Positions 51,483 through 55,765 of a stretch of DNA of 64,000 nucleotides are shown in pieces. The DNA is from Promicromonospora thailandica (GTDB lineage Bacteria > Actinomycetota > Actinomycetes > Actinomycetales > Cellulomonadaceae). A program made the position numbers and the translations under genes. The stretch lies in contig NZ_JAMTCS010000009.1 in the NCBI RefSeq assembly GCF_024171955.1, positions 186,001 through 250,000 of the forward strand, read 5' to 3'. The notes below the pieces were generated by a model. That model worked only from the letters and a program-made list of their open reading frames with translations. It had not been told where the DNA came from and searched no databases. The stretch's first letter is position 1; every line of letters begins with the position of its first letter.

Positions 51483-52034
51483 ATGGAACGACTTACCAAG
51501 GCCGCGCTCGCGACGGGCGGTGCTGCCGTGCTGCTGCTCGGCGGTGCGGGGACGATCGCGTACTGGACGGCCGAGGGAACGGCGGACGGCCCCGACATCG
51601 TCTCCGGCAGCTTTACGGTGGCCGCGACGGCGTGTGACGACACGTGGACCCTTGATGACGACACCCCGCTGCCCGCTGACGGCGCGATCGTGCCAGGAGA
51701 GACGGTCAGCCTGGAATGCGTCTATACGATGGAAGCCGAAGGCGAGCACCTGGCGTTGGGCGGCGTGGAGGTGAGCGCGCCGGAATGGGTGGAGGAGAAC
51801 GCCTTCACGGCAGAGCTGACCCTTGCCGAACCGGTGGTCACGGTGAACGGTGGCGAGGCGACCTTGCCGGCGCCGATCGTCACGGGCGACACGGTGGGAG
51901 TCCTTCTTGGCGTGACGTTCGACGGTGAGACCGCCACCAACGACTCCCAGTCGCCGACGGGGGCGGAGCTGACGGCCGCTCTGGCCGAGGTCACCGTGAC
52001 CATGACACAGGCGCACGCGGAGGCGGCCGGCTGA
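51483..52034 (+). CDS. Exported protein with alternate (SipW-type) signal peptide
   Basis: 183 residues. The N-terminus LTKAALATGGAAVLLLGGAG followed by TIAYWTAEGTADGPDIVSG is the pattern of alternate signal-mediated exported proteins (RER_14450-like/TasA-CalY-like). There, the AYWT...SG region carries the SipW-type cleavage site. The mature part is acidic, lysine-free in long stretches and beta-strand-rich, as expected for a fibre or surface-layer subunit. GGAAGGC precedes the ATG. One base separates it from the signal peptidase gene that would process it. The fibre role is inferred from family resemblance. Confidence 0.83.
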   Translation: MERLTKAALATGGAAVLLLGGAGTIAYWTAEGTADGPDIVSGSFTVAATACDDTWTLDDDTPLPADGAIVPGETVSLECVYTMEAEGEHLALGGVEVSAPEWVEENAFTAELTLAEPVVTVNGGEATLPAPIVTGDTVGVLLGVTFDGETATNDSQSPTGAELTAALAEVTVTMTQAHAEAAG

Positions 52035-52035
52035 C

Positions 52036-53244
52036 ATGCGAACCGTGCTCCTCTTCCTGGGGCGCGTCGCCGCAGTGGTCGTGATCGTGCTCGGTGGGGC
52101 GGCCCTGGCCGCCGGCGTGCTGGTGCCCCGACTCACCGGGGCGACCCCGTACGTGGTGCTCAGTGGATCGATGGCGCCGACTCTGCCTGCGGGGGCGCTG
52201 GTCGTCGTACGCCCGGTGGATCCTGCGGGTATCCGGACCGGCGATGTCATCACCTATCAGGTCCGCTCGGGCGAGCCCGTCGTGGCGACGCACCGCGTGG
52301 TCGGGATCGGTTCCACCGCTGCGGGCGAGCGCACCTTTCGAACGCGGGGCGATGCGAACGGTGCCGATGACGTACATCCGGTCCGGGCGGTCCAGGTGCA
52401 GGGGCGCCTCTGGTACTTCGTGCCCTACCTCGGCCGGGCCGGCACGTTGCTGACGGGTGAGCAGCGCGAGACGCTGACCGCCGTGCTCGCGGTCGGGCTG
52501 ATCGGATACGCGGGCTGGCAGGTCCGTGCCGCGGTCCAGGAGCGTCGGGCCGTGACGCAGACCGCGGGGACCGGACCGACCGCGAGGCGGTCGAGCTCTG
52601 CACGGGGGTCGTCCGGCGGGTCCCGGGCCACGGGACTGGTCCTTGCCGTCGTGTTGTCCGGATCGGTATGGACACCAGGGGCGCCGGCGCGAGCGGAGGC
52701 GGGTGCGCCGGACCGACCACCATCGGTGGGGCTCAGCCTGGACGGCCGGACGTGGAACCAGGACAGTGTCTCGCCGCTGTTCGACAGGGGGATGCGGTGG
52801 GTCCCGGGCGATGTGGCGAGTGCGACCTTCTACGTGCGCAACGACTCGCGGGCTCCCGTTGCAGGGCAGGCAGAGGTGCTGATGGGGCCCGGATCCGAGG
52901 TGCTGACACGCGAGCTGTCCTTCCGCACCCGGCTCGCCGGTGCGGCGTGGCGTCACGGCGTGCGGTCGGCTCCGGTAGTGCTCGCGCCGGGTGACGTGGT
53001 CCCGGTGGACGTCGAGGTGGCGTTCGCGTCAGGAGCCATGAACGAGACTCAGAGGTCGCGCGTGGCGCTCGAGATCCGCGTCGCGCTGACGGACGTCGCG
53101 GTGCCGCCAGGGCAGGAGCCAGGTGCGCCGGTGGCCCCGGAGCAAGAACCGCTGGCCCCGACGGGAGCGAACCCGCTCGTTCTGCTGCTCCTGGCCGTGG
53201 CCGCGGTGCTTGCCGGGACGGCCCTGTGGAGGCGGCATGGCTGA
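52036..53244 (+). CDS. SipW-like signal peptidase I fused to a putative LAxTG-anchored surface domain
   Basis: 402 residues. Residues 1-30 are a membrane anchor. SGSMAPTLPAG carries catalytic Ser45, and THRVVGI supplies His86 where ordinary bacterial enzymes have Lys, so the peptidase is of the SipW/ER type. A second helix follows at about 160-178. After a Ser/Gly linker, a hydrophobic stretch (about 198-220) ends in PARAEA, like a second signal peptide. An extracellular-type domain (about 225-350) follows, then LAPTG (373-377), a membrane helix and RRHG, the layout of a sortase substrate. It overlaps the next gene by 8 bp. Confidence 0.83.
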   Translation: MRTVLLFLGRVAAVVVIVLGGAALAAGVLVPRLTGATPYVVLSGSMAPTLPAGALVVVRPVDPAGIRTGDVITYQVRSGEPVVATHRVVGIGSTAAGERTFRTRGDANGADDVHPVRAVQVQGRLWYFVPYLGRAGTLLTGEQRETLTAVLAVGLIGYAGWQVRAAVQERRAVTQTAGTGPTARRSSSARGSSGGSRATGLVLAVVLSGSVWTPGAPARAEAGAPDRPPSVGLSLDGRTWNQDSVSPLFDRGMRWVPGDVASATFYVRNDSRAPVAGQAEVLMGPGSEVLTRELSFRTRLAGAAWRHGVRSAPVVLAPGDVVPVDVEVAFASGAMNETQRSRVALEIRVALTDVAVPPGQEPGAPVAPEQEPLAPTGANPLVLLLLAVAAVLAGTALWRRHG

Positions 53245-53839
53245 GAGAAGGTACCGGGCAGGCGTCGTGGCGCTGCTCGTCCTGGCGCTCTGCGCGAGCG
53301 GTGGTGTCGCATGGGCGTGGTGGTCGGTCGCAGGGACGGCCCAGGCGCCGCCCGTGGCATCGGGCCGGCTGGACCTGACAGGTGGACCGGCGACCGGTCA
53401 GGAGTTCCTTGTGGGTCCGGGCGGCACTTGGTCCTACCCGGTGCTCACCCTGCCTGCGGCGCTCCCCGGGGAGAGCGTCGCGCGGGCGATGGTGCTGCGC
53501 GCCGGCGGGACCACCGACCTGACGGTCTCGGGCACGGTGTCGGCGGAGTCCGACGTGCTGGGGCCGGACCTCCTGGTCACCGTGACCCGGGACGGTGCGC
53601 CCAGCAACACGACGGTGGACGGGTTGCGAACCGGGACCTGCTCCGGAACCACCCTCGTCACCAGGCAGCCGGTCGGTACGACGCCGTCGACGTTCCTGCC
53701 TGGCACCTTCGCCGCGGCGGAGACCGTGATCACCCTGTGCGTGGTGCTCGGGCTCGACAGCGATGCGCCGAGCAGCGTGCAGAACCAGACCACCACGGTC
53801 GCGTTCGCGGTCTCCGCACGGCAGGCGGCGGCGCCATGA
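53237..53839 (+). CDS. Exported protein with SipW-like N-terminus
   Basis: 200 residues. A hydrophobic helix (about 8-26) ends GGVAWAWWSVAGTAQA, closely resembling the AYWT...GT motif of the first cassette gene. The body is Thr/Ser/Gly-rich, with two cysteines (about residues 134 and 168) and predicted beta strands. No known domain was recognised. It is probably a minor surface subunit processed by the peptidase encoded just upstream, whose gene it overlaps. Confidence 0.72.
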   Translation: MAERRYRAGVVALLVLALCASGGVAWAWWSVAGTAQAPPVASGRLDLTGGPATGQEFLVGPGGTWSYPVLTLPAALPGESVARAMVLRAGGTTDLTVSGTVSAESDVLGPDLLVTVTRDGAPSNTTVDGLRTGTCSGTTLVTRQPVGTTPSTFLPGTFAAAETVITLCVVLGLDSDAPSSVQNQTTTVAFAVSARQAAAP

Positions 53840-54243
53840 GACGTGCACGGTTGCGGCTGGTGATGGTGGCGCTGGCGCTGCTGCTGCTCGCGGGCGGTAC
53901 GGTTTCGGCGTGGGCCTGGTGGACCGACCAGGGGACAGTGCGGTCCGGAGCCGTGGCGACGGCGGTCTTGCCCGCGCCGACCGCACGGTGCGGTGCGGTC
54001 GGCGTCGCATCGGTGAGGTTCGACTGGACCTCTGTGACCGGCGCGACGAGGTACGTGGTGCACTACGGGGCGAACGGCGCGCGTACGCAGGTGACCACGG
54101 GGACGAGCTTCCTCGCCCTGGACCTGATCGGGCAGGGCACGTTCTGGGTCACCGCACAGCGGCAGTTCACGGGCACCACGTGGACGTCGGTCCCGTCGAA
54201 CCGGCTCACCTACACCGTGGCGGCGGTCTCGCTGTGCGGCTGA
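53836..54243 (+). CDS. Exported fibronectin-III-like protein with SipW-like N-terminus
   Basis: 135 residues. MRRARLRLVMVALALLLLAG followed by GTVSAWAWWTDQGTV repeats the cassette's signal pattern. The mature about 100 residues (VRFDWTSVTGATRYVVHYGANG...TYTV) have the W/Y spacing of a single fibronectin type III domain, with a cysteine at each end. It could be a tip or adapter subunit. Its ATG overlaps the previous stop (ATGA), so the four cassette genes form one translation-coupled unit ending 42 bp before pdxT. Confidence 0.72.
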   Translation: MRRARLRLVMVALALLLLAGGTVSAWAWWTDQGTVRSGAVATAVLPAPTARCGAVGVASVRFDWTSVTGATRYVVHYGANGARTQVTTGTSFLALDLIGQGTFWVTAQRQFTGTTWTSVPSNRLTYTVAAVSLCG

Positions 54244-54285: not shown

Positions 54286-54921
54286 GTGATCACCCCGACC
54301 ATCGGCGTCCTCGCCCTGCAGGGCGACGTCCGCGAGCACCTGGTAGCCCTCGAGTCCGTGGGGGCGCGCGCCGTGACGGTGCGACGTCCCGCCGAGCTGA
54401 CCGCCGTGGACGGCCTCGTCCTGCCCGGCGGCGAGTCCACGACGATCGACAAGCTGCTGCGCATCTTCGACCTGCGCGACCTGCTGCAGGCGCGCATCAA
54501 GGAGGGCCTGCCGGTCTACGGCTCGTGCGCGGGGATGATCCTTCTCGCCGACCGGATCCTGGACGGCACGGCCGACCAGCAGACGGTGGGCGGCATGGAC
54601 GTCGTGGTGCGGCGCAACGCGTTCGGCCGCCAGGTCGACTCGTTCGAGACGGACCTCGAGCTCACGGGAATCTCCGACGTCGGTGACGGCGGCCCGGTGC
54701 GCACCGCGTTCATCCGCGCGCCCTGGATCGAGGAGGCCGGCCGGGACGTCGAGGTGCTGGCGCGCATCCCGGCTGTGGATACGCAAGGCCGTCCGGTGGC
54801 GGCCGCCGGTAGAATTGTCGCAGCACGGCAGGGGCCGCTGCTCGCCACCGCGTTCCACCCCGAGATCACGGGGGACACGCGTGTGCACGGGCTGTTCGCC
54901 GGCATGGTTGCGGGCGGCTGA
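54286..54921 (+). CDS. pdxT: Pyridoxal 5'-phosphate synthase, glutaminase subunit
   Basis: 211 residues. It hydrolyses glutamine and channels ammonia to Pdx[15 protein letters not shown] (about 5-18), LPGGESTT and the nucleophile motif VYGSCAGMI (Cys about 81) are intact. The C-terminal FHPEI supplies the His-Glu of the triad. GTG start. In most actinobacteria it directly follows pdxS; here it is preceded by the surface-protein cassette. Confidence 0.96.
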
Positions 54922-55003
54922 GCGGTCGTCCCGGTACCGTTCGACGCCACTGCACCAGTCACCGCACACGAGTCACCGTAAACGCAAGGAGTCAGGTAAA
55001 GGC

Positions 55004-55765
55004 ATGTCAGGTCACTCCAAGTGGGCCACGACCAAGCACAAGAAGGCCGCGATCGACGCCAAGCGCGGCAAGCTCTTCGCGAAGCTGATCAAGAACATCG
55101 AGGTCGCGGCGCGGACGGGCGGGGGCGACCTCGCCGGTAACCCGACGCTGTTCGACGCGGTCCAGAAGGCGAAGAAGTCGTCGGTCCCCAACGACAACAT
55201 CGATCGTGCGGTCAAGCGCGGCTCCGGCGAGGGCGCCGACGCCGTCGACTACCAGACGATCATGTACGAGGGCTACGGCACGAACGGCATCGCCGTCCTG
55301 GTGGAGTGCCTCACCGACAACAAGAACCGCGCCGCCTCCGAGGTGCGCCTGGCGTTCTCCCGCAACGGCGGCAACCTCGCCGACCCGGGATCGGTGTCGT
55401 ACCTGTTCTCCCGCAAGGGCCTGATCGTGGTGCCGAAGGCCGACGGGGTGGGCGAGGACGAGGTCATGCTCGCCGCGCTCGACGCCGGCGCCGAGGACGT
55501 CACCGACCAGGGCGAGGTCATCGAGGTCCTCACCGAGGCCACCGACCTGGTGTCCGTGCGCACGGCCATCCAGGAGGCCGGCATCGAGTACGACTCGGCC
55601 GACGTGATCTTCCACCCCTCCATGCAGGTCGAGGTGGACGTCGAGGGCGCCCGCAAGATCATGCGCCTCATCGACGCGCTCGAGGACAGCGACGACGTGC
55701 AGAACGTCTACGCCAACTTCGACGCGAGCGACGAGGTCATGGCGGCACTCGACGACGAGGAGTGA
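55004..55765 (+). CDS. yebC: YebC/PmpR-family protein
   Basis: 253 residues, full length. [37 protein letters not shown] at the N-terminus, [16 protein letters not shown] in the middle and an acidic C-terminal tail are diagnostic. The family has been described as DNA-binding regulators, and some members act as translation factors that relieve ribosome stalling at proline stretches. It lies between pdxT and ruvC, its standard actinobacterial position. GCAAGGAGT is about 10 nt upstream of the ATG. Confidence 0.95.

Follow-up and report, generated by a model that had tools for sequence, protein, structure and literature searches.

A SipW-type signal peptidase fused to an LAPTG-tailed extracellular domain in a four-gene cassette of Promicromonospora thailandica

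The window analyzed here is a stretch of 64,000 nucleotides from the 5.38-Mb draft genome of Promicromonospora thailandica (contig NZ_JAMTCS010000009.1, positions 186,001 to 250,000), and all window coordinates are counted from its first letter. Reading of the open reading frames placed four tightly packed genes, g1 to g4, on the plus strand at 51483-54243. The gene g1 (51483-52034, 183 amino acids) encodes a predicted SipW-dependent secreted protein and candidate main fibre subunit, as judged from TIGR04089, TIGR04088, and an AlphaFold2 model. It is followed by g2 (52036-53244, 402 amino acids), in which a SipW-type signal peptidase continues into an LAPTG-tailed extracellular domain, and by two genes for small exported proteins, g3 (53237-53839, 200 amino acids, AWAWW..GT N terminus), a candidate SipW substrate, and g4 (53836-54243, 135 amino acids), which looks fibronectin type III-like by eye only. 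A preliminary description, made from the letters alone, had these genes overlapping or 1 bp apart and g1, g3, and g4 sharing an N-terminal pattern. Both statements hold: the gap between g1 and g2 is 1 bp, g2 and g3 overlap by 8 bp and g3 and g4 by 4 bp, and the patterns are GTIAYWTAEGT, AWAWWSVAGT, and AWAWWTDQGT, respectively. Its central observation, the fusion of a signal peptidase to a sortase substrate, was likewise borne out, with the substrate role as a putative one, by one continuous frame of 402 amino acids and by homologues that are also fused. Classed by its tested features, g2 combines a TIGR02228 peptidase with a sorting signal of class E type; these features do not place it in the TasA family.

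The N-half of g2 (52036-52533, residues 1-166) is a signal peptidase with two transmembrane helices and the residues Ser45, His86, and Asp106. Residues 14-158 scored 82.9 bits against TIGR02228, above the curated cut-off of 51.85, and g2 reached 73.2 bits against the Bacillus SipW equivalog NF046067, far below its cut-off of 190. Signal peptidases I of the endoplasmic reticulum and SipW type use a Ser-His and not a Ser-Lys catalytic pair. Of the two residues that had been assigned to a SipW-like peptidase from the outset, Ser45 is kept in 72 of the 73 aligned rows, the remaining row having a gap, and His86, as well as Asp106, in all 73, the window included. The top row of the Foldseek search with the g2 model was the human signal peptidase complex (7p2p, E value 1e-4). 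Judged from gene adjacency, the N-half may be a dedicated signal peptidase that cuts the alternate signal peptides encoded next to it. Nocardioides sp. J54 (L053:4988-5989) has a second SipW-like peptidase that continues into a SipW-type signal helix (AAYWTD) and another domain; the partner of this fusion is thus a protein of the type on which such peptidases act.

The other end of g2 (53152-53241, residues 373-402) reads as a sorting signal composed of LAPTG, a transmembrane helix with a hydrophobic stretch at residues 381-397, and WRRHG. The course given in the preliminary description, from a second signal-like helix through an extracellular-type domain to LAPTG, a helix, and RR, is thus present. 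Conservation of the LAPTG, which had been set beforehand as a test, was found: L[AP]xTG occurs 18 to 60 residues from the C terminus in 44 of the 46 rows of C-half homologues with ≥55 bits (shuffled rows, mean of 0.5 and maximum of 5), with LAPTG itself in the three close fusions. In 28 of 29 aligned rows, an LxxTG precedes a hydrophobic helix, mostly with a basic tail as judged by eye, which agrees with the helix-RR tail expected of these homologues. Among the 51 loci with a C-half, 47 possess an LxxTG near the end (32 LAxTG, 14 LPxTG, and 1 LGxTG) and 4 have none. The class E-type sortase that had been postulated is also encoded: the genome contains exactly one Pfam sortase, and this is of class E (NF033747, 264.6 bits); a PabA-like gene, named by eye, adjoins it. 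Class E sortases use LAXTG signals, according to an excerpt of PMC5148588. A class E sortase scored above the cut-off in 19 of the 20 genomes tested, the exception being G162. A search of the window's own genome for LPXTG anchors gave 14 matches at an E value of ≤1, g2 not being included; 7 of them carry LASTG, LAATG, or LAQTG tails with a helix and a basic end, 2 carry LPVTG or LALTG, and the rest are without such a tail. By the motif and the sortase gene, the C-half would be covalently anchored to the cell wall via LAPTG.

The occurrence of the fusion elsewhere was evaluated in the family. A search with the 402-residue g2 matched 134 of 200 family genomes, 160 of 221 were matched with the three close fusions as an aligned query, and a scan of named genomes yielded 6 loci. 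In 70 of these 160 genomes, for the most part those with the best scores, 71 loci were read, not counting the window; weaker fusions may have been missed by this selection. The threshold for a C-half homologue was ≥25 bits, 6 of the 51 C-half matches being doubtful with <55 bits, and “no C-half” can also mean out of reach, because the flank length varied between loci. Same-genome duplicates (L049 to L052 and L055) and the fragment L054 were left out of the counts; the N-half tree of 73 rows was built also without L012, and the C-half tree of 46 rows without L013, L016, L080, L125, L126, and the rows L109 and L123 with <55 bits. The SipW-like half was present in all 71 loci and a C-half homologue in the stretch of 51, in 47 as a separate gene and in 4 as a fusion. 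The search for the same fusion was successful in two further species, G048 (P. citrea) and G054, which have it in full length and in a single frame, 58 to 64% identical to the g2 of the window; the three species belong to two genera and come from different assemblies. The other two fused loci are more distant and sit in other genera, one in G015 and one with a second, distant peptidase of G162, in which a SipW-like peptidase is fused to an LATTG protein (L126:1939-3315, minus strand).

A fusion that arose as an assembly or sequencing artefact by loss of a stop codon might be considered, as the halves are separate in 47 of the 51 loci having both. This explanation has a negligible probability and was discarded, as the fused frame recurs in three species whose assemblies are different; moreover, the window, G048, and G054 form one clade in both half-trees (branch values of 96/80 in the N-half tree and 100/98 in the C-half tree). 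Since this clade is nested among split forms, the fusion is derived. A split locus of Antribacter joins it in the N-half tree (99/96), and the two trees disagree on how the three close fusions branch among themselves. The “fused” state requires at least 3 changes in the tree of the N-half and 2 in that of the C-half, in which G162 is not contained. Separate origins of the fusions in G015 and G162 are likely, albeit of unsure placement because both sit on long branches. The fusion is therefore real and derived, and it is probably recurrent. In full-text searches of the open-access PubMed Central (PMC) literature, the titles and abstract openings of the papers listed showed no fusion of SipW to a sortase substrate.

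Between the two halves of g2, the junction (52534-52695, residues 167-220) is composed of a basic linker, a signal-peptide-like helix at about residues 198-214, and an APARA/EAG site. A hydropathy scan of the five fusions with a window of 17 residues and a threshold of 1.5 indicated four segments in all of them, namely, both helices of the peptidase, a third one at the junction, and a C-terminal one; extra calls were a stretch in the ectodomain of the window protein (314-330, at the threshold) and an overlapping stretch at the first helix in L126. The third segment has 1 to 5 basic residues among the 12 preceding ones and a small-x-Ala motif around its end in all five fusions. As a control, the same motif was scored at the first and second segments of these Ala-rich proteins, and it occurred at 4 of 10, so that small-x-Ala gives a hint only that the junction segment resembles a signal peptide kept inside the chain. 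This signal-like helix is internal in the fusion and N-terminal in the split C-half homologues. None of the 29 C-half rows matched the SipW-type signal model TIGR04088 at an E value of ≤0.1 (row L086 is without the signal region), which makes the housekeeping signal peptidase I, encoded in the genome (136.7 bits), the likelier cutter. The chain is probably released at this internal signal-peptidase-like site.

Alternatively, the fusion may stay whole as a protein with four transmembrane segments, the C-half being sortase-linked to the wall and the peptidase being tethered at the wall-membrane interface, where the subunits emerge. The hydropathy fits four membrane passes and the continuous frame is kept in three species; however, the third segment is weakly hydrophobic in the window (Kyte-Doolittle value of 1.5), the small-x-Ala after it is a weak hint of cleavage with the control as stated, and the split relatives indicate that the C-half can exist as a protein of its own. 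An uncleaved chain is thus conceivable but not probable. Production of the C-half alone from an internal start, making g2 two overlapping genes, has very little probability. In the window, a GTG at residue 173 is preceded at a distance of nine bases by AGGAG, and in L004 the corresponding position lies a few codons downstream of an ATG, but in L003 no start codon occurs from residue 163 to the hydrophobic segment. An internal re-start as a general mechanism was rejected because it is not conserved in L003.

For the ectodomain (52726-53109, residues about 231-358), an immunoglobulin-like (Ig-like), pilin-like beta-sandwich is predicted. The AlphaFold2 model of g2, based on an alignment of 9 sequences, had a mean predicted local distance difference test value (pLDDT) of 66, with 75 to 90 over residues 261-330 and 55 to 68 over residues 231-260. 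After 7p2p, the Foldseek search with the whole model listed Pyrobaculum bundling pili (1.6e-4) and Pyrodictium cannulae (2.2e-4), followed in lower rows by the TasA fibre 8aur (2.0e-3), the pilin domains of PapG and FimG, and also the AvmM enzyme and MSP/VAP domains. In the VIA comparison, the Pyrobaculum bundling pilin 7ueg aligned with residues 226-354 (Z score of 7.4, root-mean-square deviation [rmsd] of 3.8, 119 residues aligned) and the PapG pilin domain with a Z score of 8.3 (rmsd of 3.4, 111 aligned); no TasA row was among the 50 listed, which was not counted against the fold. Among the structural neighbours of the ectodomain, pilin folds are frequent. The model supports an Ig-like sandwich and suggests a pilin role. 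Moreover, g1 and the C-half may be kin, because their profiles aligned with a probability of 93.9 and an E value of 1.5e-7 in a single comparison, and blastp matched the C-half to the g1 of Antribacter with 31% identity (E value of 2.8e-4). The BsaA fibre model TIGR04090 matched 1 of 29 C-half rows (0.0058). Against Pfam and NCBIfam, the C-half gave no named family beyond the anchor motifs and scattered single-row matches. A search with its profile against the sequences of the Protein Data Bank (PDB) returned 9 rows with scIg12 as the best (5e-4), which were taken as chance-like and discarded.

The candidate substrates differ in how far models recognize them. The g1 product scored 104.7 bits against TIGR04089, the model of alternate-type signal peptide proteins, above the curated cut-off of 60, and 24 bits against TIGR04088, being the only match of the genome to the latter at an E value of ≤0.001. 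The g3 and g4 of the window matched neither model, and neither had a family match alone. Of the 11 aligned rows of g3, including the window row without a match of its own, 5 matched TIGR04089 and 4 matched TIGR04088 at an E value of ≤0.1, and A-W-A-x-W is invariant in this alignment; homologues of g4 were found in 8 loci. The alignment of g1 comprised 22 rows, and its profile matched no PDB sequence at an E value of ≤10. The AlphaFold2 model of g1, based on 6 sequences, is beta-rich and weaker than that of g2; its best VIA row was a Thermus protein with a Z score of 5.7.

By a narrow balance of probability, these features are best explained by a SipW/TasA-type surface-fibre cassette with a wall-anchored base that is synthesized as one polypeptide together with its dedicated peptidase and probably set free afterwards. 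In the lineage of the window, two adjacent genes have fused, and the enzyme and the base would therefore be produced in a 1:1 ratio and enter the membrane next to each other in a chain with four transmembrane segments. The g3 and g4 products and that of g1, the probable main subunit, would be exported via SipW-type signal peptides, for which the N-half of g2 would be the dedicated signal peptidase. The C-half, as a pilin-like minor subunit, would enter the membrane through an ordinary signal helix, the housekeeping signal peptidase would most likely cut after ...APARA to yield a base and a peptidase in the membrane, and the single class E sortase would attach the former to the cell wall through LAPTG, where it would serve as the fibre base. 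Since relatives often have both halves as neighbouring genes, the fusion suggests that trimming and attaching of a surface fibre are coupled here.

Besides the control segments at the junction, a number of results weigh against this mechanism. The main contrary result comes from G162, a draft of 99% completeness that yielded no class E sortase and no Pfam sortase of any kind, and it concerns only this most distant fusion. The generic LPXTG anchor model TIGR01167 listed g2 neither in the search of its own genome nor on the protein, so that the call of the sorting motif rests on the homologue alignment. The fold evidence is middling, coming from models built on 9 (g2) and 6 (g1) sequences. The best VIA row of g2 was the N-domain of PorA (Z score of 9.4, rmsd of 3.3, 112 aligned), and MSP/VAP domains, with Z scores of about 7 to 7.8, were level with the pilin rows; because these score alike, a common Ig-like arrangement could explain the fold matches. 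For g1, the top Foldseek row was the TasA fibre 8aur, albeit with a weak E value of 0.054, and no TasA or camelysin family appeared among the Pfam rows of g1 (E value of ≤1) or of the C-half. In the genus Promicromonospora, the cassette is patchy, with 7 of 13 genomes matching at all and 2 of 13 fused, and its absence from the remaining 6 indicates that the system is dispensable. In another explanation, a SipW peptidase serves several wall-bound or secreted proteins that remain single and form no fibres. The window proteins match no proven fibre family, and the middling fold matches are common to unrelated Ig-like domains. On the other hand, the profile similarity of g1 and the C-half and the pilin-rich structural neighbours speak for fibres, and the SipW operons described in excerpts of PMC9674648 and PMC7395162 make them; a cassette without fibres is thus possible, with a clearly smaller chance than an even one. 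As a tentative extension to Actinobacteria, TasA-like fibres might stand there on a sortase-anchored base, which in several lineages would have been independently fused to the signal peptidase of the fibre system into a wall-docked unit for processing, nucleation, and anchoring on one polypeptide.

Published systems, as described in the excerpted reports, share parts of this arrangement. As in tapA-sipW-tasA of Bacillus subtilis, the cassette would combine in one operon a dedicated SipW peptidase, a secreted main subunit, and an accessory protein of minor abundance or role. In B. subtilis, tapA overlaps sipW and TapA starts TasA filaments by strand donation (PMC10151520), TasA polymerises by donor-strand exchange (PMC9674648), and SipW also cuts TapA (PMC9674648), whereas the cassette accessory has what resembles an ordinary signal helix. 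This accessory also carries a sorting signal and is fused to SipW, and there is no sequence-family match to TasA. The sipW-bsaABCRSD locus of Clostridium perfringens is likewise a SipW-dependent filament operon, with a sortase gene adjacent; BsaA, however, needs SipW and not this sortase, is without an LPXTG-like motif, and polymerises without the sortase srtB, and the excerpt describes no fusion (PMC7395162). Bacillus cereus possesses SipW-processed subunits and a wall-located assembly factor as well (TasA/CalY/CapP), but this system is described as sortase-independent and, in the excerpt, without a fusion (PMC13082335). A further comparable case is the signal peptidase homologue SipA of Streptococcus pyogenes (4n31), which is essential for pilus polymerisation. 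With class E sortase substrates such as the Streptomyces chaplins, g2 has the LAXTG signal and the class E sortase in common (PMC5148588). Unlike the chaplins, the cassette substrate is joined to a signal peptidase and is pilin-like in appearance. TapA is not known to carry a sorting signal, nor S. pyogenes SipA to be fused to a pilus protein. The cassette may thus work like the SipW fibre systems, with the addition of a sortase-tagged subunit fused to SipW.

How SipW-dependent fibres are anchored on cells is not settled in the TapA, BsaA, and B. cereus systems, TapA being only “thought to be involved in anchoring” TasA in the excerpt of PMC9674648. If the proposed mechanism is true, a sortase-tagged subunit beside SipW and its repeated fusion would join two export routes that are usually treated apart and provide, in Promicromonospora citrea and other soil bacteria, an anchor open to direct testing. 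The fusion is real and conserved and goes beyond ordinary annotation, and it would tie signal-peptide removal to wall anchoring; the mechanism past that point is what we infer.

The order of the cassette was followed across the loci. A strong g1 match (>170 bits) stands ahead of sipW and the C-half in 17 of the 71 loci, and in 16 of these 17 a g3 match (>60 bits) follows, giving a window-like order; elsewhere, the matches to g1 and g3 had lower scores or were missing, and those found frequently lie upstream of sipW. In L006, L007, L009, and L015, the g3-like and g4-like stretches share one reading frame, so that a second pair of neighbours may be fused. In the window, a PdxT-like and a YebC-like gene, both named by eye, abut the cassette at 54286-55765. 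This pair was not found in L049 (the fused Myceligenerans), L014, and L017, the latter two being short stretches, and it was present just downstream in 5 of the 8 loci queried, namely, the fused P. citrea L050, L016, L051, L052, and L053 (Nocardioides). In L016 (L016:1767-2354, Promicromonospora G087), the stretch from sipW to the PdxT-like gene contains only a weak remnant of the C-half with 31 bits, which gives the impression of a decaying cassette.

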